From Candidatus Tanganyikabacteria bacterium (lineage in GTDB: Bacteria > Cyanobacteriota > Sericytochromatia > S15B-MN24 > VGJW01): a stretch of 64,000 bases of DNA. The notes beneath the pieces were generated by a model, which was given only the letters and a program-made list of their open reading frames with translations, ran no database searches and was not told where the DNA came from. Shown piece by piece: positions 45,590-61,047 of the stretch; position 1 is the first letter of the stretch, and each line of letters opens with the position of its first letter. Both the position numbers and the translations under genes were made by a program. Where the stretch lies: the NCBI GenBank assembly GCA_016867265.1, contig VGJW01000012.1:1-64000 (forward strand). Direction: 5' to 3'.

Positions 45590-47722
45590 ATGCAGACGCA
45601 GAATCCCATGACGGGGCCACCCGGTCCGCCGAGGCCTCCTCAGGTTCCGGGAACCGCACCGCTGCAGGGTGTTCCCGGGGCCGTGGTCAGGCCGCCGGCT
45701 GCTCCGCCACCCGGGGCACCACGTCCCGCGGGGCCTCCGCCCGGTTTTCCCCAAGGACCTCAAGGACGTCCGCCTGCCGGTCCACCGCCGGGTTGGTCCG
45801 GTCCGCCGCCGGGCGCAGCCCCGCAGGCTGCGTCTCCTGCCGCAGCCCCGCAGGCTGCGCCTCCTGCCGCTGCCCCACAGGCCGCTCCGGGATGGGGTGG
45901 AGCGCCGCCTCCCGCAAAGCCTTCCGGCTTCGGTCCCCCGTCGCCGGCAGCCCCCAAGCCAAGTGGTTTCGGGCCTCCGACGGCCGCGTTCGGCAAGCCG
46001 CCCGCTCAGGCGGCCGCTGCGTCCGATGGTGCGCTGAAGCGCCTGAAGCTGGGTGAATGGATGGTCATGCTCGGCCTCCAACCTCAGGACAAGGTCAATG
46101 AGATCATCACGGCCCAGCAGGGTACGGGACGCAAGATCGGCGAGTTGTTCGTCCAACGGGACATGATCAGCGAGAAGGATCTCGAGGACCTCCTGATACT
46201 TCAGGATTTGCTGGGCAACCACGCTTCCATCTCCCAGATCACGATCGAGCCCAAGCTGATGCAGATGGTGCCGGCGCAGTTTGCCAAGCAGAACGGCGTC
46301 ATTCCCTTCGGCAAGATCGGGCGTCGCCTTGTCGTGGGCATGAGCCGTCCTGACGATGTCAAGACCTTGGACAGCTTGTCGTTGCTGACGGGCTTCCTTG
46401 TCGTGCCCGTCGTCCTGAGCGATCAACGCATAAAGGAAGGCTTGTCGCATCTCTTCGAGAAGAAGTCCGAGACCTCGAACCAAGATGCCATCGCCAGGGC
46501 CGTCAAGTCTGCGGGCAAGGAAGACGCCCTGTTGGCCGCTGCGCGCAAGATCGAGGACTTGGGCGCGACCAATTCGGAGTCGGATGCGCCGATCATCGAG
46601 TTGGTCAACTCGATCCTGAACGACAGTATCGAGTCCGGGACGTCGGATATTCACCTGGAGGCCCGTGAGAACTACCTTGAGGTTCGTTTCCGCATGGACG
46701 GCGTGCTCACCAAGGTCCTCGAGGTCCCCAAGTCCATCGAGATGTCTGTCTGCACCCGCTTCATGGTGTTGTCGAACATGAACATCACCGAGAAGCGCCG
46801 CCCGCAAGACGGCCGCTTCTCGGTCAAGTCGCGGGCGGGAGACAAGATCGACTTCCGTGTCTCGATGATTTCGACGCACTTCGGCATGAAGCTGTGCTTG
46901 CGCTTGCTGCGTCCCATGAACATGAATCGCAGCCTGACGGAACTGGGCTTCGATCCGGATGACGTCGCCAAGTACCAACGCCTGCTGCACGCGCCGTCGG
47001 GCATCGTCCTCGTCACCGGACCCACCGGCTCGGGCAAGTCCTCGACCTTGTATGCCAGTCTCGGCATGATGAGCAAGGACACCGAATCCGTCATCACCAT
47101 CGAAGACCCTGTGGAGTTCCCCTGCGATGGGATCAGCCAGATCCAGGTCAACGCCAAGATTGACCTGACGTTTGCGACAGCGCTCAGGACCATCCTGCGT
47201 CAGGATCCCGACGTGATCATGGTGGGTGAAATCCGCGACCATGAGACATGCGAAGCAGCCGTGCACGCCGCCATGACGGGTCACTTGGTGTTGTCCACCC
47301 TGCACACGAACGACGCCGTGCAGACCATCAACCGTCTGATCGAGATGGGTGTGCCGCCCTACATGGTGTCTTCCACGGTCACGGGCGTTGTCGCCCAGCG
47401 CCTGCTGCGTCGTGTCTGCCTCAAGTGCAAGGTCGAGTACCAGGCAACCCCGGAGGAGCGCGAGTTCCTGGGCTTGGCCGACGGCGAGCCTTGTACCTTG
47501 GCCAAGGGCGAGGGTTGCGAACATTGCAAGCAGACGGGCTTCAAGGGGCAGTTGGCGATCTTCGAGATCTTCATCATGTCCAAGCGGCTCCAGACGCTCA
47601 TCAACAATGGTGACTCCGTTCTGTCCATCACCGAGGTAGCCAAGGCCGAAGGCATGACCACGCTGATGGATGTCCATCACCGAGGTAGCCAAGGCCGAAG
47701 GCATGACCACGCTGATGGATGA
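45590..47722 (+). CDS. Type IV pilus / type II secretion assembly ATPase (PilB/GspE), C-terminus frameshifted by a 49-bp duplication
   Basis: 710-aa hexameric ATPase as sequenced. The first 145 residues are Pro/Ala/Gly-rich; an MshEN/GspE N-terminal domain follows (LGEWMVMLGLQPQDKVNEII, IGELFVQRDMISEKDLEDLL). The catalytic core has Walker A GPTGSGKSSTLYASL, the Asp box (VITIEDPVEFP), Walker B (DPDVIMVGEIRDHETCEAAV), the His box (HLVLSTLHTNDAVQTINRL) and a zinc tetracysteine (CLKCK...CEHCKQTGF). The 49-bp tandem duplication at 47624-47721 replaces the last 25 residues (DGKRKALKGVTTVSEVQRIC GLGEI) by 16 unrelated ones. Deleting one copy gives 719 codons ending at TGA 47796-47798. All catalytic motifs lie before the break, so activity may survive. 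ATG 45590 follows GGGGAACATAGAATCAGGC. Confidence 0.9.
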   Translation: MQTQNPMTGPPGPPRPPQVPGTAPLQGVPGAVVRPPAAPPPGAPRPAGPPPGFPQGPQGRPPAGPPPGWSGPPPGAAPQAASPAAAPQAAPPAAAPQAAPGWGGAPPPAKPSGFGPPSPAAPKPSGFGPPTAAFGKPPAQAAAASDGALKRLKLGEWMVMLGLQPQDKVNEIITAQQGTGRKIGELFVQRDMISEKDLEDLLILQDLLGNHASISQITIEPKLMQMVPAQFAKQNGVIPFGKIGRRLVVGMSRPDDVKTLDSLSLLTGFLVVPVVLSDQRIKEGLSHLFEKKSETSNQDAIARAVKSAGKEDALLAAARKIEDLGATNSESDAPIIELVNSILNDSIESGTSDIHLEARENYLEVRFRMDGVLTKVLEVPKSIEMSVCTRFMVLSNMNITEKRRPQDGRFSVKSRAGDKIDFRVSMISTHFGMKLCLRLLRPMNMNRSLTELGFDPDDVAKYQRLLHAPSGIVLVTGPTGSGKSSTLYASLGMMSKDTESVITIEDPVEFPCDGISQIQVNAKIDLTFATALRTILRQDPDVIMVGEIRDHETCEAAVHAAMTGHLVLSTLHTNDAVQTINRLIEMGVPPYMVSSTVTGVVAQRLLRRVCLKCKVEYQATPEEREFLGLADGEPCTLAKGEGCEHCKQTGFKGQLAIFEIFIMSKRLQTLINNGDSVLSITEVAKAEGMTTLMDVHHRGSQGRRHDHADG
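45815..45895. repeat. 27-bp in-frame tandem repeats in the Pro/Ala-rich ATPase N-terminus
   Basis: Three copies of a 27-base unit, encoding AAPQAASPA, AAPQAAPPA and AAPQAAPGW. The third copy has diverged at several bases. Length is a multiple of three, so copy number can change without breaking the gene. Confidence 0.8.
47624..47721. repeat. 49-bp exact tandem duplication
   Basis: Two identical 49-base copies (47624-47672, 47673-47721), beginning TCCATCACCGAGGTAGCC and ending CGCTGATGGATG, lie head to tail at the 3' end of the PilB/GspE gene. The unit is not a multiple of three and shifts the frame. Confidence 0.95.
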
Positions 47723-53208: not shown

Positions 53209-53249
53209 GGCGAACGACCATCCGCATCGGGCGAATGGCCGTTCGCGCC
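53209..53249. terminator. Stem-loop between convergent genes
   Basis: GGCGAACGACCATCCG can pair with CGAATGGCCGTTCGC (two imperfect positions) around a 7-base loop. It lies between the receptor gene (+) and the coiled-coil gene (-). No T-tract follows on either strand, so it may not terminate alone. Confidence 0.45.
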
Positions 53250-53264
53250 ACCAAAATCACGCTG

Positions 53265-54626
53265 TCAGGATCGGGCGCCGGCAGGTGCCTTGGCCTTCTC
53301 GAGGAAGCGTGCGCAGAGGTGATTCAGAGCCACCGCTGCCATCTCACGTGCCAGCAGCGAGTCCTTGATTTCCGACAAGCGCTCCAAAGCATCGGAGAGT
53401 CCCTTGCCGTCCTTCATCGTCTCCTGGAGGGTAATGGCGAAGAAGGCGTCGATGGCCTTGCGCTCGTCCTCGATCAGCTTGGTCCAGACGCCCTGGAAGT
53501 CCACGACCCGCTGTTGGAAGGGTGCCTTGGCATCCCGGGGCACATTGAATCGCTTGCTGAAGTCCGTCCGGATGTCGAGTTCGATCTCAAGTGTCTCCTT
53601 GAGCTCGTCAAGGCTGCCCGGATCCACCAGCATCCACGTCTTGGCGGATCGGAAGAACTCTAGCTCGGACTGCGTTTCTCCAGCCTGCTTGCTGGCCGAG
53701 GCCATCTGGCCCTGGACATCGCCCAGCCTCGAGGACATGTCCTCGATCCGGCTCTCCAATTCTGACTTGACCTTCTGGGCCTCGTCGCGGGTCCGGAGTG
53801 CCGTATCGAGAGACGCCTTGGCCTCGGTCAGGTCCTTGGTCAGCCGTTCGCCCTGCCTCAGCGCATCCTCGAGGTCACGCTTCAGCTGCGAGATAGGCTG
53901 GTTTTTGGAGGACATCTCCTCCTTGAGGCGACGCTGATCATTGGACACGTCGGCGAGCTTGCTCATGAGCGCTTCACGCTCCTTGCGCCATTGCTCCTCG
54001 GCCTTGGCGATGTCGCCCTCGCGCTTCTCCTTGGCCTGATCGAGCAGCTTCTTGACCTTGTCGAGCTCTGCGCGGACCTTGCCGACTTCCTTATCGTGGT
54101 CGGCCTTCAGACGATCCAGTTCCTTGGCATCGACACCGCCGACGACGGGCTCGGCCTCGGGTGTCTCGACCACCGCAGGCGGGATGGTGGCGAGAACCTT
54201 CTCGGGGAACTCGAAGGGACCCACCCACGCATAGACCTCGACATTGCGGTTGCCGGCCTGCTCGATCCAGGTCTTGAAGGCCTTCTTGAGCGCCGTGACG
54301 GCCTTGGCTTCCGTGGAGATGACACGGGGCTTCTTGCCCTTGCTGTCGTCTTCTTCGGCGTATTCGGTGAAACTGGGCACCTCGCCCAGTTCGGCCTTGG
54401 CCTGCCAGGCCAGGAAGGCCCGTTGGCGCAGGGGGAAGTCGTCGGCGACGGCCGAGGAGAGCCAAGCGTCGATCATCGGCTCCTTGGCCTTGTCGGCGCC
54501 CATCTTGCGCTCCATCTGGAAACGCATCTTGGCCTTGTCATCCTCAAGGATCAGCTGCCGCTTCACCTTGGGTTCGAGGTCCGCGAGCAGGGCTGCGACC
54601 GCCCGAGGGAAGGCGTCAGTAGTCAA
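53265..54626 (-). CDS. Coiled-coil protein, unrecognised (453 aa)
   Basis: I do not recognise this protein. Residues 1-about 150 are a globular helical domain rich in charged and aromatic residues (KVKRQLILEDDKAKMRFQME, LRQRAFLAWQAKAELGEVPS). Residues about 160-335 are a long coiled coil (KVRAELDKVKKLLDQAKEKR, DLTEAKASLDTALRTRDEAQ). The last 115 residues are again helical (SLDELKETLEIELDIRTDFS, FQGVWTKLIEDERKAIDAFF). No signal peptide or membrane helix, so it is likely cytosolic and dimeric or oligomeric. It starts with TTG overlapping the stop region of the 1,102-aa gene by 11 bases, with AGGAG seven bases upstream, so both products are made together. Confidence 0.7.
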   Translation of the reverse strand: MTTDAFPRAVAALLADLEPKVKRQLILEDDKAKMRFQMERKMGADKAKEPMIDAWLSSAVADDFPLRQRAFLAWQAKAELGEVPSFTEYAEEDDSKGKKPRVISTEAKAVTALKKAFKTWIEQAGNRNVEVYAWVGPFEFPEKVLATIPPAVVETPEAEPVVGGVDAKELDRLKADHDKEVGKVRAELDKVKKLLDQAKEKREGDIAKAEEQWRKEREALMSKLADVSNDQRRLKEEMSSKNQPISQLKRDLEDALRQGERLTKDLTEAKASLDTALRTRDEAQKVKSELESRIEDMSSRLGDVQGQMASASKQAGETQSELEFFRSAKTWMLVDPGSLDELKETLEIELDIRTDFSKRFNVPRDAKAPFQQRVVDFQGVWTKLIEDERKAIDAFFAITLQETMKDGKGLSDALERLSEIKDSLLAREMAAVALNHLCARFLEKAKAPAGARS

Positions 54627-57600
54627 GGCGGAGCTCCTTTCGGCAGAAGGGTACGAAAATGTTGGCCAAAGCCTGGATGTCGACCTGCAGCTGTCTCCAG
54701 TCCTGCAAGGCCAGGGTTTCCCGGGCGATCTTGAGGCTGGATTGTTCCTTCAAGCCAAGGTCGATGGCGGCCCGGAAGTCTGCGGCAGCCTCGTCGACGA
54801 GGCCCTTGGTCCGGTACAGGGCACCGCGCGCGAACAGGGCAATGGGATCGCCAGGCGCCTTGTCGACGGCAGCGATGGCTTCCAGAAGGTCGGCGTCACG
54901 GGCCTGGTTGCGGAAGGTCAACGTGCCGAACACGTGGTCAGGTGCAATGGCGGGGATGGTGCCCACCACGGACACTTCGGCGATGTCCCCGAGGTCATCC
55001 TTGAGTGCGATCTCGAAGTGTTCGCGGCGCTCGGGCCGCCCCTCGCAGGTCAGGTCCTCACGCGCAAGCACGCGCCCGTCCGGACCCTTGACCTGCAAGC
55101 GGATGACATCCCCCTGAGGGCCTTCGTAGGCGATGGACAGGCGAATACGCCGGTCCTGGACGTAGGCGACCGAGGCCTCGAAGGAGGTCACCCGCGGGGC
55201 CCACATGACGGTCAGCGGAGTCATCCGGCGGTCGCCCACGAACGGCACCAGCTTGGTGGCGCGCCCCGTGATGCGTTCGGCGAGCTCGGCCAGCGATACG
55301 AAGGCGTAGCCCTCATAGAAAGGTACCGAGCGGACGACCTGATCCCCCAGGATGACGCCACCGGTTTGGCCCAGATTGGTGAAGAGCACCAGGCCGAACC
55401 GCGCGAGGTCATCACGGCCGATCACGACCTTGCGCTGGAAGGCTGCGGCGGGTTCCTGGCTGTCGGGGGCGTCGTCATACAAGCGCCATCCGCAGACAGG
55501 TACCTCGAAGTGGGCCTCGAGGTTGAGGCGCGGACGCTCGAGGGGAACCTGCGCCACCACGGCAGGAGGTACGAACTCGCCCACGCCCAGGGAGCCCGGG
55601 TCAACCTGCACGCCGGGCAGGGCGACCCGGCGGCGCACGGCATCATCCGCGAAGCACTTGACCCTGCTGACGACCATGAACGAGATCTCCTCGCCCTCGA
55701 GGAAGGGCTGGGTCGGCAGGTCGTTGAGTTCGAGGTAAGGCAGCACGGTGAAGGCGGCCTCCGCGACCACCACGCCCGCTGTCAGCAACTCGAGGCGGAA
55801 GTGTCCGGAAGCGGACTCGCCGAGGCCGAAGGCCTTGCGAACCTGCACGCCGTTGAAGGGCCCTGCTCCGGCTCCGACACCGGCAAGTCGGGCCGACATG
55901 GCAAGGCTCTGGGTGGCGACTACCGCATCGTTGGCGAAAAGGCGAAGATCCAGGTCGGCTGCCTGGCTGATGGAAGGCGCGGGCTCGATGACCAGCGTCA
56001 GGTCTTCCCAGCGGCGTGCCGCGACGCCGTACTGGGCAGGCACCTTGAAGAAGGCGTCGCTTTCCTCGGGCAGGCGAGCCTCGAGCGCGAATGCCGAGGC
56101 CTTGGCGAAGGTCCAGGACAGGTCGCCGCCGAACGACAACTCGAGCGGGCGCGACGTGTCGGTCCACGTGACCGTCCAGCAGGCGTAGGCGCCTCGGACG
56201 CCTGAAGCCTCTACCTTGAAAGGGGCATCCTCGGGGGCCACGAAGGGCAGGCCCACGGGCGCATAGAAGAAGAGGACATTCTCACCCCGGGCGTGTTGGC
56301 CGGGCGGAATCTGGACACCGCGCCGCGCCGAGAAAAGCATCGCCCCGGGCATGCGGATGGTCCACGTCGCTTGATGCCCTCCCACCACGAGGCGATCCTT
56401 GCTGTCGCGCTGACGCAGGAAGAGCGTGGCCTCGCCCGCCTCGGGCGCGGCGAGGAGGAAGCCCGCGACGACCTGGCTTCCGTTCCCTTGGCGGTCCGTC
56501 TGGACGCCGGGCAACTCCTCTACAGGTACGATGCCGCCGGGAACGTCCGGGATCAGTTCGAGCTGGCGGCTGGCAAGGCGCGGATCGTGGAGACGCAGGC
56601 CCTGGATACCCAGATGCAGACCGTCGGCCCGATGCTGCAGGCGCAGCTGGCCGTGGACGCCCTCGTCCGGCTGGCGATCCTGCTTGGCGACGCGTACCGG
56701 GCGGTCCACCGGCCGATGACGCCACCAGAGGTAGCCGAACGACCGACCTTCGACGTAAAGCTCACGCGGCGGAACGGGGCTGTCGGCATCGCCCTCGAGC
56801 GGCTGGAATTCATCGCGAGACTTGTAGAGCACGCGCTCGCCCAATCGGCCGAGCGCCTGTTCGGGAATCTGGATGATTTCCTCTGGCGTGACGAGCTCAT
56901 TGGGCATGACGAGGAAGCTCTGCGTGCCTGTCCGGTACCGACCGTAGAACGGCACGTCCGAGGCCGTCTCGATGTCGACCTGATAGCCGTTCGGGAGCAC
57001 GACCCGGGCACCGGCAGGCAGGCCCTGGAGGACGCGGCGGAAACGCTCGGGCCCGATGGCATTGGTATAGCGCTCGGCCAAGCGCCGGAGCGCGACCTTG
57101 CCACGCATCGCCCGGAGGGGATGCACACCGCAGGCTTCTTCGACCCGTTCGGGGCGATCGACAAGGTCGAGTGGCGTAAGATCTTCGCGGACGCAAACCA
57201 CCTCGACGGCTACGGCCAGATCCACGATGGCGCGGTGCACCGCGGTGGGCATTTCCCGGAAACGGTCCGCAAGCTCGCGAAGGCGGAGATGCTCGTCTTG
57301 CAGGATCTGGACGCGCTTCTGCTCGTCGGCGGTGCCGCGCATCAAGCGAAGGGTCTCGCGGATATCCGCGGGGTGGAAGTACTTCCAGTGGATGGCGAAG
57401 AGGTCCGCGAGGTCCTGAAGGAGCCGGCCAGGCTGGCCACTGGCTGCGATGAGCGCGTCGACGTACCACGCGCCCCGCTTGCCTTCCTTGTCCTGGGCTT
57501 CGGCGCGGACCACACCCTCGTCTGCGAGTGCCTTGTCGAGGATGGACTGGATGCGCGTGTCCGAGATGCGGCCGGTCCAGTCTTTGTAGATGGACCAGAA

Positions 57601-57924
57601 GTCGCTGGCCCGGTCCGATCTGACGCCTTCGTACTCCTCGCGAATCAGGGTCAGCAGGGCGGCAAGCGTGACCAGCCGCGCCTGACCGCGCAACGTGCTC
57701 GAGACCCCGGGCACGCTCTGGCCACCATACTCCTGGTGGGTTGACAGGGCCACGTTCATCAGGGCCTGCAACTCGTCACCCAGCTCGATTTCGGCCAAGG
57801 GGGCCCGGGCCTCCCCGTCTGCCGCAGAGCCGGCCACCGAGGCCCGCCGGGTCGCGGTCAGCGCATGCAGGCGCTCGACCTCGGCCTTGTAGGCTTCGAG
57901 ATCAAGGAAAGTAGCCTTCGTCAT
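54616..57924 (-). CDS. Large multidomain protein with C-terminal TPR-like helices, unrecognised (1,102 aa)
   Basis: I do not recognise this protein. N-terminal 280 residues are helical and hydrophilic (LQALMNVALSTHQEYGGQSV, SDFWSIYKDWTGRISDTRIQ). A second helical block leads into FRRVLQGLPAGARVVLPNGY. The middle 500 residues are beta-rich with repeated sandwich-like segments (FKVEASGVRGAYACWTVTW, RLNLEAHFEVPVCGWRLYDD, IRLSIAYEGPQGDVIRLQVK). The end carries TPR-like helices (AVDKAPGDPIALFARGALYR, TKGLVDEAAADFRAAIDLGL). No signal peptide or clear membrane helix. ATG 57924 is used; upstream in-frame starts exist, but their codons are Arg-rich and overlap the divergent transketolase region. Coupled to the 453-aa coiled-coil gene. 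Confidence 0.65.
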   Translation of the reverse strand: MTKATFLDLEAYKAEVERLHALTATRRASVAGSAADGEARAPLAEIELGDELQALMNVALSTHQEYGGQSVPGVSSTLRGQARLVTLAALLTLIREEYEGVRSDRASDFWSIYKDWTGRISDTRIQSILDKALADEGVVRAEAQDKEGKRGAWYVDALIAASGQPGRLLQDLADLFAIHWKYFHPADIRETLRLMRGTADEQKRVQILQDEHLRLRELADRFREMPTAVHRAIVDLAVAVEVVCVREDLTPLDLVDRPERVEEACGVHPLRAMRGKVALRRLAERYTNAIGPERFRRVLQGLPAGARVVLPNGYQVDIETASDVPFYGRYRTGTQSFLVMPNELVTPEEIIQIPEQALGRLGERVLYKSRDEFQPLEGDADSPVPPRELYVEGRSFGYLWWRHRPVDRPVRVAKQDRQPDEGVHGQLRLQHRADGLHLGIQGLRLHDPRLASRQLELIPDVPGGIVPVEELPGVQTDRQGNGSQVVAGFLLAAPEAGEATLFLRQRDSKDRLVVGGHQATWTIRMPGAMLFSARRGVQIPPGQHARGENVLFFYAPVGLPFVAPEDAPFKVEASGVRGAYACWTVTWTDTSRPLELSFGGDLSWTFAKASAFALEARLPEESDAFFKVPAQYGVAARRWEDLTLVIEPAPSISQAADLDLRLFANDAVVATQSLAMSARLAGVGAGAGPFNGVQVRKAFGLGESASGHFRLELLTAGVVVAEAAFTVLPYLELNDLPTQPFLEGEEISFMVVSRVKCFADDAVRRRVALPGVQVDPGSLGVGEFVPPAVVAQVPLERPRLNLEAHFEVPVCGWRLYDDAPDSQEPAAAFQRKVVIGRDDLARFGLVLFTNLGQTGGVILGDQVVRSVPFYEGYAFVSLAELAERITGRATKLVPFVGDRRMTPLTVMWAPRVTSFEASVAYVQDRRIRLSIAYEGPQGDVIRLQVKGPDGRVLAREDLTCEGRPERREHFEIALKDDLGDIAEVSVVGTIPAIAPDHVFGTLTFRNQARDADLLEAIAAVDKAPGDPIALFARGALYRTKGLVDEAAADFRAAIDLGLKEQSSLKIARETLALQDWRQLQVDIQALANIFVPFCRKELRLDY

Positions 57925-58045: not shown

Positions 58046-58885
58046 ATGCCTGCCCATGCGACTCTCCCCGTGGACGCGCTCCGCGAACTGGCCCCGCGCA
58101 TCCGTGCCGATGCCCTGCGCATGATTGCCGCAGCGAACTCGGGTCATCCGGGGGGCTCCTTGTCCGCCGTGGAGATCCTGCTGACGCTTTACAAGGGAGT
58201 GCTGCGTCACGACCCGGCGAACTCTGAATGGGATGGCCGCGACCGGTTCATCCTGTCGAAGGGCCATGCCTGCCCCGCCTTGTATGCCGTCCTGGCGGAT
58301 TGTGGCTACTTTGGCCGCGACCTCCTGCCGACCTTTCGTCGTTTCGGTTCCCCGCTGCAGGGTCATCCGGAGCTCGGCAAGCTGGCGGGTGTCGAGGCTT
58401 CGACGGGCTCGCTCGGCCAAGGACTTTCCATCGGGCTTGGCATGGCGCTCGGCCACCGCATCCGGGGTGTCGATGCCCGGGTCTACGTGCTGATGGGAGA
58501 TGGCGAGATCAATGAGGGTCAGGTCTGGGAGGCCGCGCTCTCCGCCGCGCATCTCAAGGTCGATCGCCTGACGGCCATCGTGGACATCAACCGCATCCAG
58601 CTGGACGGCTTCACCTCAGATATCCTCGAGCTGGAGCCGCTCGCCGACAAGTGGCGTTCCTTTGGCTGGGAGGTCGTCGATCTCGACGGCCATGACCTGG
58701 ATGCCCTGGCTGGAGCCTTTGACCGGATGCGCTCGGTCGCAGGTCGGCCTCAGGTCATCCTGGCCCGTACGACAAAGGGCAAGGGCGTCTCCTTCATGGA
58801 AGACAACCCCGAGTTCCACGGTGCACCGCCGAGTGCCGGCGAACTGGCCCGCGCACTGGTCGAATTGGGAGTAGCCGATGCCTGA
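58046..58885 (+). CDS. Transketolase, N-terminal subunit
   Basis: 279-aa thiamine-diphosphate-binding half of a split transketolase, which moves two-carbon units in the pentose phosphate pathway. NSGHPGGSLSAVEILLTLY and FILSKGHACPALYAVLADCG, then VEASTGSLGQGLSIGLGMAL and the ThDP motif MGDGEINEGQVWEAA...DINRIQLDG are present. GTTKGKGVSFMEDNPEFHGA-like sequence (TTKGKGVSFMEDNPEFHG) ends the domain. The downstream gene encodes the second half and overlaps by eight bases. Split transketolases are common in archaea and many bacteria. Confidence 0.92.
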   Translation: MPAHATLPVDALRELAPRIRADALRMIAAANSGHPGGSLSAVEILLTLYKGVLRHDPANSEWDGRDRFILSKGHACPALYAVLADCGYFGRDLLPTFRRFGSPLQGHPELGKLAGVEASTGSLGQGLSIGLGMALGHRIRGVDARVYVLMGDGEINEGQVWEAALSAAHLKVDRLTAIVDINRIQLDGFTSDILELEPLADKWRSFGWEVVDLDGHDLDALAGAFDRMRSVAGRPQVILARTTKGKGVSFMEDNPEFHGAPPSAGELARALVELGVADA

Positions 58886-59831
58886 TCGTCCCGAACGCGT
58901 GCTGGGCAAGGCCACCCGCGATGCCTATGGCGAGACGCTGGCACAACTGGGTCGCGAGAATCCCCGGATTGTCGCGCTGGATGCGGATCTGTCCAAGAGC
59001 ACCAAGAGCGTGGTGTTCGGCAAGGCACACCCGGAGCGCTTCATCAACGTGGGTATCCAAGAAGCCAACATGGTCGGCGTGGCTGCAGGCTTGGCAACCA
59101 CCGGCCTGATTCCGTTCGCTTCATCTTTCGCGACCTTCCTGATGAGCAAGGCCTTCGACCAGATGCGGATGGCGGTTGCCAATCCCGGGCTCAATGTGAA
59201 ACTGGTGGGATCCCACGCCGGTGTCAGCATCGGTGAGGATGGAGCCTCCCAGATGGGTGTCGAAGACCTGGCCCTCGCCTGCGCCCTGCCGAGATTCACC
59301 GTGCTGGTGCCGGCCGACGCCCGGGCAGCGGCAGCGCTGACGCGTGTGGCCGCCGAGCACGTGGGGCCGGTGTTCCTGAGGACCGGACGCGCCAAGGCCG
59401 CCGAAATCTACCCCGAGGGCACCGCCTTCCGGGTGGGTGGGTCGGTAACGCACCACCTGGGCCGGGACGTCAACATCCTCGCGTGTGGCCTGATGGTCTT
59501 CGAGGCGCTCGAGGCCGCTGCCTTGGCCCGGGCCGAGGGCATCGACGCGGGTGTCGTCGACCTCTACAGCCTCAAGCCCGTCGATGCCGACGCCATCGTC
59601 GCTGCCGCGGCTGCATCCGGGAGGCTGGTCGTCGCCGAGGAGCACCTTCGGCACGGGGGCCTCGGCAGCATCGTGGCTCAGGTGTTGGCGGAACGTCATC
59701 CGGCTCGCGTGGTTGCCGTGGATCTTGGCGATCGCTATGCCGAGTCGGGAACGCCCGAGGCCGTGCTCGAGGCCTACGGGATGACGAGCGCCCGCGTCCT
59801 CGAGGCCATCCGAAAGGCCGCTGCCGTCTAA
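58878..59831 (+). CDS. Transketolase, C-terminal subunit
   Basis: 317-aa pyrimidine-binding and C-terminal half of the split transketolase. RDAYGETLAQLGRENPRIVA and LDADLSKSTKSVVFGKAHPE begin the Pyr domain; FINVGIQEANMVGVAAGLAT carries the catalytic Glu that contacts the ThDP pyrimidine; IPFASSFATFLMSKAFDQMR and GVSIGEDGASQMGVEDLALA follow. The C-terminal domain starts near DVNILACGLMVFEAL. It is co-translated with the N-terminal subunit and converges with the uracil-DNA glycosylase gene, overlapping it by four bases. Confidence 0.92.
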   Translation: MPDRPERVLGKATRDAYGETLAQLGRENPRIVALDADLSKSTKSVVFGKAHPERFINVGIQEANMVGVAAGLATTGLIPFASSFATFLMSKAFDQMRMAVANPGLNVKLVGSHAGVSIGEDGASQMGVEDLALACALPRFTVLVPADARAAAALTRVAAEHVGPVFLRTGRAKAAEIYPEGTAFRVGGSVTHHLGRDVNILACGLMVFEALEAAALARAEGIDAGVVDLYSLKPVDADAIVAAAAASGRLVVAEEHLRHGGLGSIVAQVLAERHPARVVAVDLGDRYAESGTPEAVLEAYGMTSARVLEAIRKAAAV

Positions 59832-60667
59832 GGCCAGATGAGGCCTGCCTCGGCCATCTGTCGCGTGACGTACGGGGCCCATCCTGTCGGCCCCCAATGG
59901 CCCCGGGTTTGTGGACTGGGATGGATGATGGCGACCAGTCGGGGGGCTTGCCCCTCCAGGTCGCGCAGCGTGGCGCACGCCACCGAGAGTCGCCCGGCGG
60001 CGTAGAGTCCGACGCCGACGACCCATTCGGGTGCCATCATCCGCAGCCAGCCAAGCAGCGCCGCGTCGCACCACGCTGTCATCGCCTCGGCGGCCGATAC
60101 TCCCTTGCGAAAGTCCGTCGGAATGACGTTTCGACCGTTCGCGTCGAAGAACAGCAAGGGGCAGAAGTTGACGACGCAGGCCGTTCGGAAAAAGGCGTCG
60201 GCATCAGGAAAGAGGCCTCGAGCCCAGCCATAGAGGTTCTGGCCCGAGCTCTCGCGCCGCGTCGCGTGGAGGCCGATGACGGGGCGGTCGCCCCGCATGC
60301 CCTCGGGGACGACGACGGGGGAATCGATGCCCATCCACGTCCGTACCAGCTCGGGGTCTCCGAACGGGATGCCGGTCTGGCCCATGCCCCAAGGCCCCGG
60401 GTTCATGCCGAGGAACAACGCCTTGCGCATGCCCGGCTGGCCGTGGCGAGAGAGCCAGGCTTCGAGCGGGGCCGAGGCATAGGCCTGAGGCCTGTAGATG
60501 TGCGTGAGGTCGTCGAACCCCTTGCGCAGGCTGCCTTGCTCCGGAAAGTCCAGGCCGCAAAGGGCTTGGTCGAGCAGCCGGGTCAGCCGGATGGGGTCAC
60601 GGACGTGGGTCAGCGATTCTGCTGTCAGGCCCGTGCTGGCACGTCCCGCAGGCGGGACGAAGGTCAC
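59828..60667 (-). CDS. SMUG1-type uracil-DNA glycosylase
   Basis: 279-aa member of uracil-DNA glycosylase family 3 (SMUG1), which removes uracil and some oxidised pyrimidines from DNA. Motif 1 is GMNPGPWGMGQTGIPFG (residues 87-103); NFCPLLFFDANGRNVIP and the intercalation motif HPSPQTRGHW also match SMUG1 as I know it. SMUG1 is known mostly from animals and a limited set of bacteria. GTG 60667 overlaps the TGA of the upstream membrane-protein gene (GTGA), so it is translationally coupled to it. Confidence 0.88.
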   Translation of the reverse strand: MTFVPPAGRASTGLTAESLTHVRDPIRLTRLLDQALCGLDFPEQGSLRKGFDDLTHIYRPQAYASAPLEAWLSRHGQPGMRKALFLGMNPGPWGMGQTGIPFGDPELVRTWMGIDSPVVVPEGMRGDRPVIGLHATRRESSGQNLYGWARGLFPDADAFFRTACVVNFCPLLFFDANGRNVIPTDFRKGVSAAEAMTAWCDAALLGWLRMMAPEWVVGVGLYAAGRLSVACATLRDLEGQAPRLVAIIHPSPQTRGHWGPTGWAPYVTRQMAEAGLIWP

Positions 60668-61047
60668 GCCGTCTGCCGGCCCCGAATCAGCAGGAGGCCC
60701 CCCGCAGCGGTCATCAAGGCCTCGAAGGCCCACAGGCTGCTCAGGAAAGGCGTCGGCATCCCGGTCAGGGCGGCATCGACCGTACGGCCTGCCACGAGTC
60801 CGGCACAAAGTGTCGTCAGCAGCACGAGGGCAGGCCTCGTTGCTGCAGGACGCAAGGCGCCCATGGCCAGCAAGCCTGCGAGGGCGAGGGATTGACCTCC
60901 GTAGGATGCCCGCAGCTCGTTGCTGGCGCCGGGGCGGTCGAGCCCGAGCCCGACCGAGGTGGCGAGTCCCGCAGGATCGGCCAGACCCTTACCGGCCACC
61001 AAGAGGAAGGAGAGAGCCGCGAGGCCAAGGAGGAAACGTGCGCGCAT
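60664..61047 (-). CDS. DUF4345-like small membrane protein
   Basis: 127-aa membrane protein with four hydrophobic helices (FLLGLAALSFLLVAGKGLAD, SLALAGLLAMGALR, LVLLTTLCAGLVAGRTVDA, SLWAFEALMTAAGGLLLI). The layout and the GGQxLALA...ALR and ARxVD elements fit the DUF4345 family, of unknown function. ATG 61047 is chosen because the promoter at 61055-61084 would start transcription at about this base, giving a leaderless message; ATG 61053 is only possible if transcription starts earlier. No Shine-Dalgarno sequence is seen for either. The gene is coupled to the SMUG1 gene by a GTGA overlap. Confidence 0.7.
   Translation of the reverse strand: MRARFLLGLAALSFLLVAGKGLADPAGLATSVGLGLDRPGASNELRASYGGQSLALAGLLAMGALRPAATRPALVLLTTLCAGLVAGRTVDAALTGMPTPFLSSLWAFEALMTAAGGLLLIRGRQTA

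Follow-up and report, generated by a model that had tools for sequence, protein, structure and literature searches.

The window, a 64,000-nucleotide stretch of DNA from a Candidatus Tanganyikabacteria bacterium, contains a two-gene operon whose products, BigA and CoilB, form an unrecognised, lineage-restricted family with folds of known kinds. The pair is testable, has no name in the libraries consulted, and is conserved across divergence as deep as a class, within a part of the cyanobacterial phylum that has received little study. A preliminary description of the locus had proposed an undescribed cytosolic complex, and this is a plausible reading of the pair. We tentatively propose a more specific one, that BigA and CoilB form a dedicated cytosolic adaptor or scaffold complex, and regard it as quite possible. 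A real complex would mark a lineage-specific process that deserves to be identified. Failing that, the two proteins still provide two new family models for annotation.

Both genes are on the minus strand and run from 57924 down to 53265, with BigA first and CoilB second. Gene 1 (BigA, 54616..57924) encodes 1,102 amino acids, all domains included. Its ATG start was confirmed by homologues, which begin at the BigA methionine at 57924 (MTKATFLDL, MSKATLLDL, or MSKVTLLDL). Because the homologues start there, the 1,168-aa frame that reaches up to 58122 is overextended and was not used. Gene 2 (CoilB, 53265..54626) encodes 453 amino acids and starts with a TTG at 54626. The BigA stop codon is located at 54616–54618, giving an overlap of 11 bases. 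The ribosome-binding site of gene 2, AAGGAG (54634..54639, minus strand), lies 7 nt before the TTG, within the Lys–Glu codons of the R-K-E-L at the conserved BigA C-terminus, and is conserved in five genomes. The preliminary description had read the overlap and the dedicated ribosome-binding site as signs of a single unit. The operon is real, and the same arrangement of TTG start, overlap, and embedded ribosome-binding site recurs in four other genomes. The overlap was 11 bases in G001 and G002, which belong to the window's family, and was 8 bases long in the G007 and G008 genomes of another family. The most distant genome has the two genes about 11 nt apart, without overlap, and an ATG as the start of gene 2.

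A chance reading frame was ruled out by shuffling, by homologues, and by codon-position bias. In shuffles of the 3.3-kb gene 1, the longest open run was 403 codons at most. Full-length BigA homologues exist, with identities of 18–50%. Differences between relatives were 0.43–0.56 at third codon positions versus 0.18–0.32 at second positions, an approximately twofold excess that is expected for genes under purifying selection. Long open frames of up to 653 aa were also observed opposite both genes, for example at 54244–56205 on the plus strand of the window. Most likely, these are shadow frames of GC-rich coding sequence and not genes.

The 3D structure of BigA was modeled using AlphaFold2 (mean pLDDT 76 and pTM 0.49, from an alignment of only seven sequences). 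The model contained helices at residues 9–301, strands at residues 307–1006, with the small β domain extending to about residue 420, and helices at residues 1011–1094. It supported, with moderate confidence, the helical, multi-sandwich, and TPR-like parts that had been suggested for the large protein. All BigA domains are given here with minus-strand coordinates. Homologues and the model defined an N-terminal helical domain (residues 1–300, 57025..57924) with a conserved F-x-[ILV]-Y-W-K-Y-F-H-P motif. It is followed by a small β domain (residues 301–420, 56665..57024), where model confidence was low to moderate. The model and Foldseek placed about six β-sandwich units, Ig/macroglobulin-like in type, in residues 421–1006 (54907..56664). 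Residues 1007–1102 (54619..54906) were assigned from the model and profiles to TPR-like helices, which carry a conserved C-terminal F-[VI]-P-F-x-R-K-E-L motif.

Conservation was uneven along BigA. Residues invariant in all seven homologues were densest in the small β domain (L310, P311, G313, G328, Y330, V339, P341, N342, G362, and G397) and concentrated in 310–342; one of the seven sequences ends at about residue 500, and positions beyond it are not judgeable from this set. The identity comparison indicated that residues 421–632 (56029–56664, minus strand) are the fastest-diverging part within the family. Between the window and two full-length family relatives, the two ends of BigA were 48–58% identical, whereas residues 421–632 were 26–32% identical. 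The domains outside this region were 45–61% identical in the same kind of comparison. The identity of residues 421–632 was among the lowest 27 of 1,087 positions, a rank that is descriptive and not a test because neighbouring positions overlap. Within the G007/G008 pair, the TPR end was 76% identical, the helical domain 58%, and the sandwiches 45–59%. Profile comparison detected no homology between the BigA sandwiches, the apparent f/g match being only eight residues common to both cuts. It detected none between domains of BigA and CoilB either.

An AlphaFold2 model of CoilB (pLDDT 71 and pTM 0.36) contained helices at residues 5–145, a coiled coil at residues 167–238 and 245–334, and further helices to residue 446. 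The earlier view of globular ends around a 175-residue coiled coil agreed with this model, in which helical domains flank a coiled coil at 167–334 with moderate confidence. The N-terminal helical domain (residues 1–150, 54177..54626, minus strand) was defined by the model and homologue comparison. The coiled coil (residues 165–334, 53625..54134, minus strand), defined by the model and heptad periodicity, is long and located between two conserved helical domains. With its predicted break at about residues 239–244, it could form a straight rod or fold back into a hairpin. The C-terminal helical domain (residues 335–453, 53268..53624, minus strand), taken from the model and the alignment, contains W-x-K-L...E and L-x-A-R-E, which are invariant in all members. 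The most distant homologue of CoilB (L019:2195-3934) has 579 aa. The N-domain (first ~80 residues) apparently occurs twice in it; the two matches were weak (E = 7e-5 and 0.003) and were scored by a model built without this homologue.

Searches of Pfam, NCBIfam, PADLOC, PHROGs, PDB sequences, and Foldseek gave no specific relative of either protein, in line with the initial failure to match them to a known family. Pfam and NCBIfam returned only a sub-threshold TPR match for BigA and generic coiled-coil matches for CoilB, and membership of a known family was rejected. PADLOC and PHROGs returned nothing for BigA and only coiled-coil noise for CoilB. No enzyme, ATPase, nuclease, or toxin family matched either protein beyond coiled-coil stretches. 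BigA alone had no match in PDB by sequence. The BigA family profile matched TPR proteins at the C-terminus with an E value of 1.9e-5. Foldseek gave nothing significant for CoilB, and no description of such a pair was found in the literature.

The partial likenesses to known proteins were compared with the definitions of their families. The C-terminal ~90 residues of BigA resemble the TPR helices of bacterial adaptors (Pfam TPR clan, E = 0.0012; PDB 2y4t, NlpI). The TPR superfamily is characterized by tandem 34-residue repeats above the Pfam gathering score, whereas BigA scored 19.7 bits against a cutoff of 32.7, has only one to two repeats, and has about 1,000 other residues without a counterpart in TPR proteins. 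The BigA C-terminus is TPR-like, and we do not file BigA as a TPR protein. Foldseek aligned the β region of BigA with generic strings of Ig-like domains, with E values down to 2e-7, TM about 0.1, and rmsd over 20. The matched proteins were S-layer proteins, complement/macroglobulin, a biofilm protein, and phage proteins. Identity to the β-sandwich strings of complement C5, A2ML1, and S-layer proteins was about 9%. These proteins are exported, whereas BigA has no export signal, and no family-specific domain of such strings was recognised in it. The MG, thioester, or complement-type domains and the export that define alpha-2-macroglobulin and complement proteins were not found in BigA, which had no Pfam match to them and no signal peptide. 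To our knowledge, cytosolic β-sandwich strings are uncommon in bacteria.

CoilB residues 168–323 matched the coiled-coil stretches of SMC/Rad50-like and tape-measure proteins. Unlike SMC/Rad50, CoilB has no ATPase head or zinc hook. Its matches to SMC, Rad50, and Wadjet proteins, which are defined by ATP-binding heads, were essentially coiled coil and scored below 30 bits against cutoffs of several hundred. Known anti-phage defence proteins would be recognised by a PADLOC match outside the coiled coil. BigA had no PADLOC match, and the matches of CoilB (best E = 9e-7) were mostly to coiled-coil stretches of unrelated families. The MoxR–vWA ternary conflict systems (PMC7159879) are also multi-gene cytosolic systems of environmental bacteria. 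The likeness is by analogy only, and neither a MoxR ATPase gene nor a vWA gene was recognised in the flanks of the loci examined.

No signal peptide, hydrophobic N-terminus, or membrane segment was detected in six orthologues of each protein. All BigA and CoilB orthologues examined had an acidic pI. The cytosolic location assumed in the preliminary description is thus indirectly supported by the lack of a hydrophobic N-terminus or membrane segment.

BigA was present in 7 of the 18 genomes of the class: four of five in the window's family, both genomes of another family of the order, and one of two in a distant family. CoilB was present in the same seven genomes. Six of its copies were found by sequence search, and the G015 copy was identified from its position and conserved C-terminal motif. 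Homologous pairs in the same gene order were found in the six other genomes, with the pair split between contigs in one of them (G003). Neither BigA without CoilB nor CoilB without BigA was found. Co-occurrence was thus strict in every genome with either gene. The preliminary description had named two grounds for giving up its proposal, namely clear matches to a described family and genes that do not occur together elsewhere, and neither was seen.

Wider spread in the phylum was rejected. No BigA relatives were found elsewhere in the phylum among 386 genomes, and no relatives of the CoilB N-domain among 244 genomes. A match in G125 was dismissed as noise (29 residues, 17.5 bits, in a 51-codon frame). 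When about 85,000 species genomes were scanned with one short motif, the only matches were Cyanobacteria bacterium RYN_339, Cyanobacteria bacterium NC_groundwater_1444, and bacterium BP5.bin90, all members of the same group; a scan with a single motif could miss very distant relatives. The viral contigs and plasmids searched contained no relatives, and a mobile or viral origin was rejected. Over the three families, BigA identity to the window was 48–50%, 25–26%, and 18%, and GyrA identity in the same family order was 78–80%, 67%, and 56%. BigA evolved much faster than GyrA. Its divergence followed the GyrA order, indicating that inheritance looks vertical. Two families closer by GyrA (71–73%) lacked the operon, and their genomes were about 95–97% complete. 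Vertical descent with several losses explains this pattern most simply. Confinement to part of one class, with apparently repeated loss, points to an accessory function.

The lack of a catalytic family match and of an export signal, together with the TPR-like end and the coiled-coil partner, favored a cytosolic, non-enzymatic adaptor or scaffold. The operon, its coupling, and the strict co-occurrence favored assembly of both products into one complex, which we infer from gene organization. CoilB would dimerise or fold into a long rod via its coiled coil, both ends of which would carry a binding domain. BigA would be an elongated β-sandwich string whose conserved ends, the N-terminal helical and small β domains and the C-terminal TPR-like bundle, would bind CoilB and a client. 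The TPR-like motif is a typical protein-binding fold. The faster-changing sandwiches may serve as a spacer or a client-facing surface. The overlapping genes, with the ribosome-binding site of gene 2 inside gene 1, would favour co-translational assembly at a fixed ratio. Such a complex would work without catalysis, by keeping its partners a fixed distance apart. In its boldest form, this proposal would make the pair the first case of a new type of cytosolic machine in bacteria, in which an elongated Ig-repeat/TPR adaptor sits on a coiled-coil rod. The machine would have a cellular role of its own and would have been present in the ancestor of part of the class. We consider this form rather unlikely.

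Other readings of the pair were weighed against the same evidence. The long coiled coil, the elongated multi-sandwich partner, and the absence of an enzyme match would also suit a lineage-specific structural assembly resembling a cytoskeleton or a coat, built of polymerised CoilB that BigA would decorate or crosslink. However, any likeness to intermediate-filament families stayed within noise, a TTG start for gene 2 gives no hint of excess CoilB, and no bulk-protein signal such as multiple copies was seen, making this reading unlikely. A chromosomal conflict or defence module, in which BigA senses an invader via its variable β-sandwiches and CoilB relays the signal or oligomerises, would agree with the patchy presence within the class and the fast evolution of residues 421–632. 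Against it are the PADLOC result of coiled-coil noise only, the lack of a visible effector domain, the absence from plasmids and viral contigs, and the vertical-looking divergence order. The neighbours are also housekeeping genes (transketolase, SMUG1-type glycosylase, and tryptophan 2,3-dioxygenase-like, some of them labeled by eye). We judge a defence role quite unlikely.

The idea of an enzyme or regulator whose active site escaped recognition was considered improbable. The small β domain (residues 301–420) could hide such a site, which counts against the scaffold view, as the densest invariant residues are found there (L310-P311-x-G313 and V339-x-P341-N342). These residues are mostly structural (Gly, Pro, and Leu), no invariant Asp/His/Cys cluster was seen, and no family matched. 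Most known β-sandwich arrays like this one belong to surface or virion proteins, which makes non-classical export conceivable, and the S-layer, complement/macroglobulin, and biofilm proteins were the best Foldseek matches of the BigA β region. A secreted or surface adhesin pair with a non-classical exit route is nevertheless very improbable, as the Foldseek scores reflect generic Ig-like strings, no orthologue examined had a hydrophobic N-terminus or membrane segment, and the coiled coil of CoilB is of an ordinary cytosolic type.

On one side, a two-subunit transketolase (58046 onward) is encoded divergently from the operon, and on the other, a TonB-dependent receptor gene runs convergently with it. 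A 14-bp hairpin (~53212..53244, no strand assigned) follows gene 2, between the operon and the receptor gene. It has no T-run, was not listed by the terminator scan, and is a possible transcription end. No sigma-70-type promoter was found for the operon. No neighbour was shared across families, as the neighbours differ between families; the SMUG1-type gene and transketolase were nearby only in the window's own family. No correlation with flagella was found, as flagella were present both with and without the operon.

Several features of the surrounding DNA were also recorded. The transketolase of the window (58046–59831) consists of two overlapping genes for the N-terminal and C-terminal subunits. 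In G002, it is apparently a single 677-codon gene beside the operon. The SMUG1-type uracil-DNA glycosylase gene (59828–60676) matched Geobacter SMUG1 by sequence (E = 1e-44) and was not recognised by Pfam and NCBIfam at thresholds of 1e-4 and 1e-3. Two other genomes of the family also have it beside the operon. An exact 49-bp tandem duplication with two identical copies was found at 47622–47721, close to the 3′ end of a PilB/GspE-type ATPase gene (45590–47722). Because 49 cannot be divided by 3, the C-terminus of the ATPase changes reading frame. The duplication is either a recent mutation or an assembly artefact.
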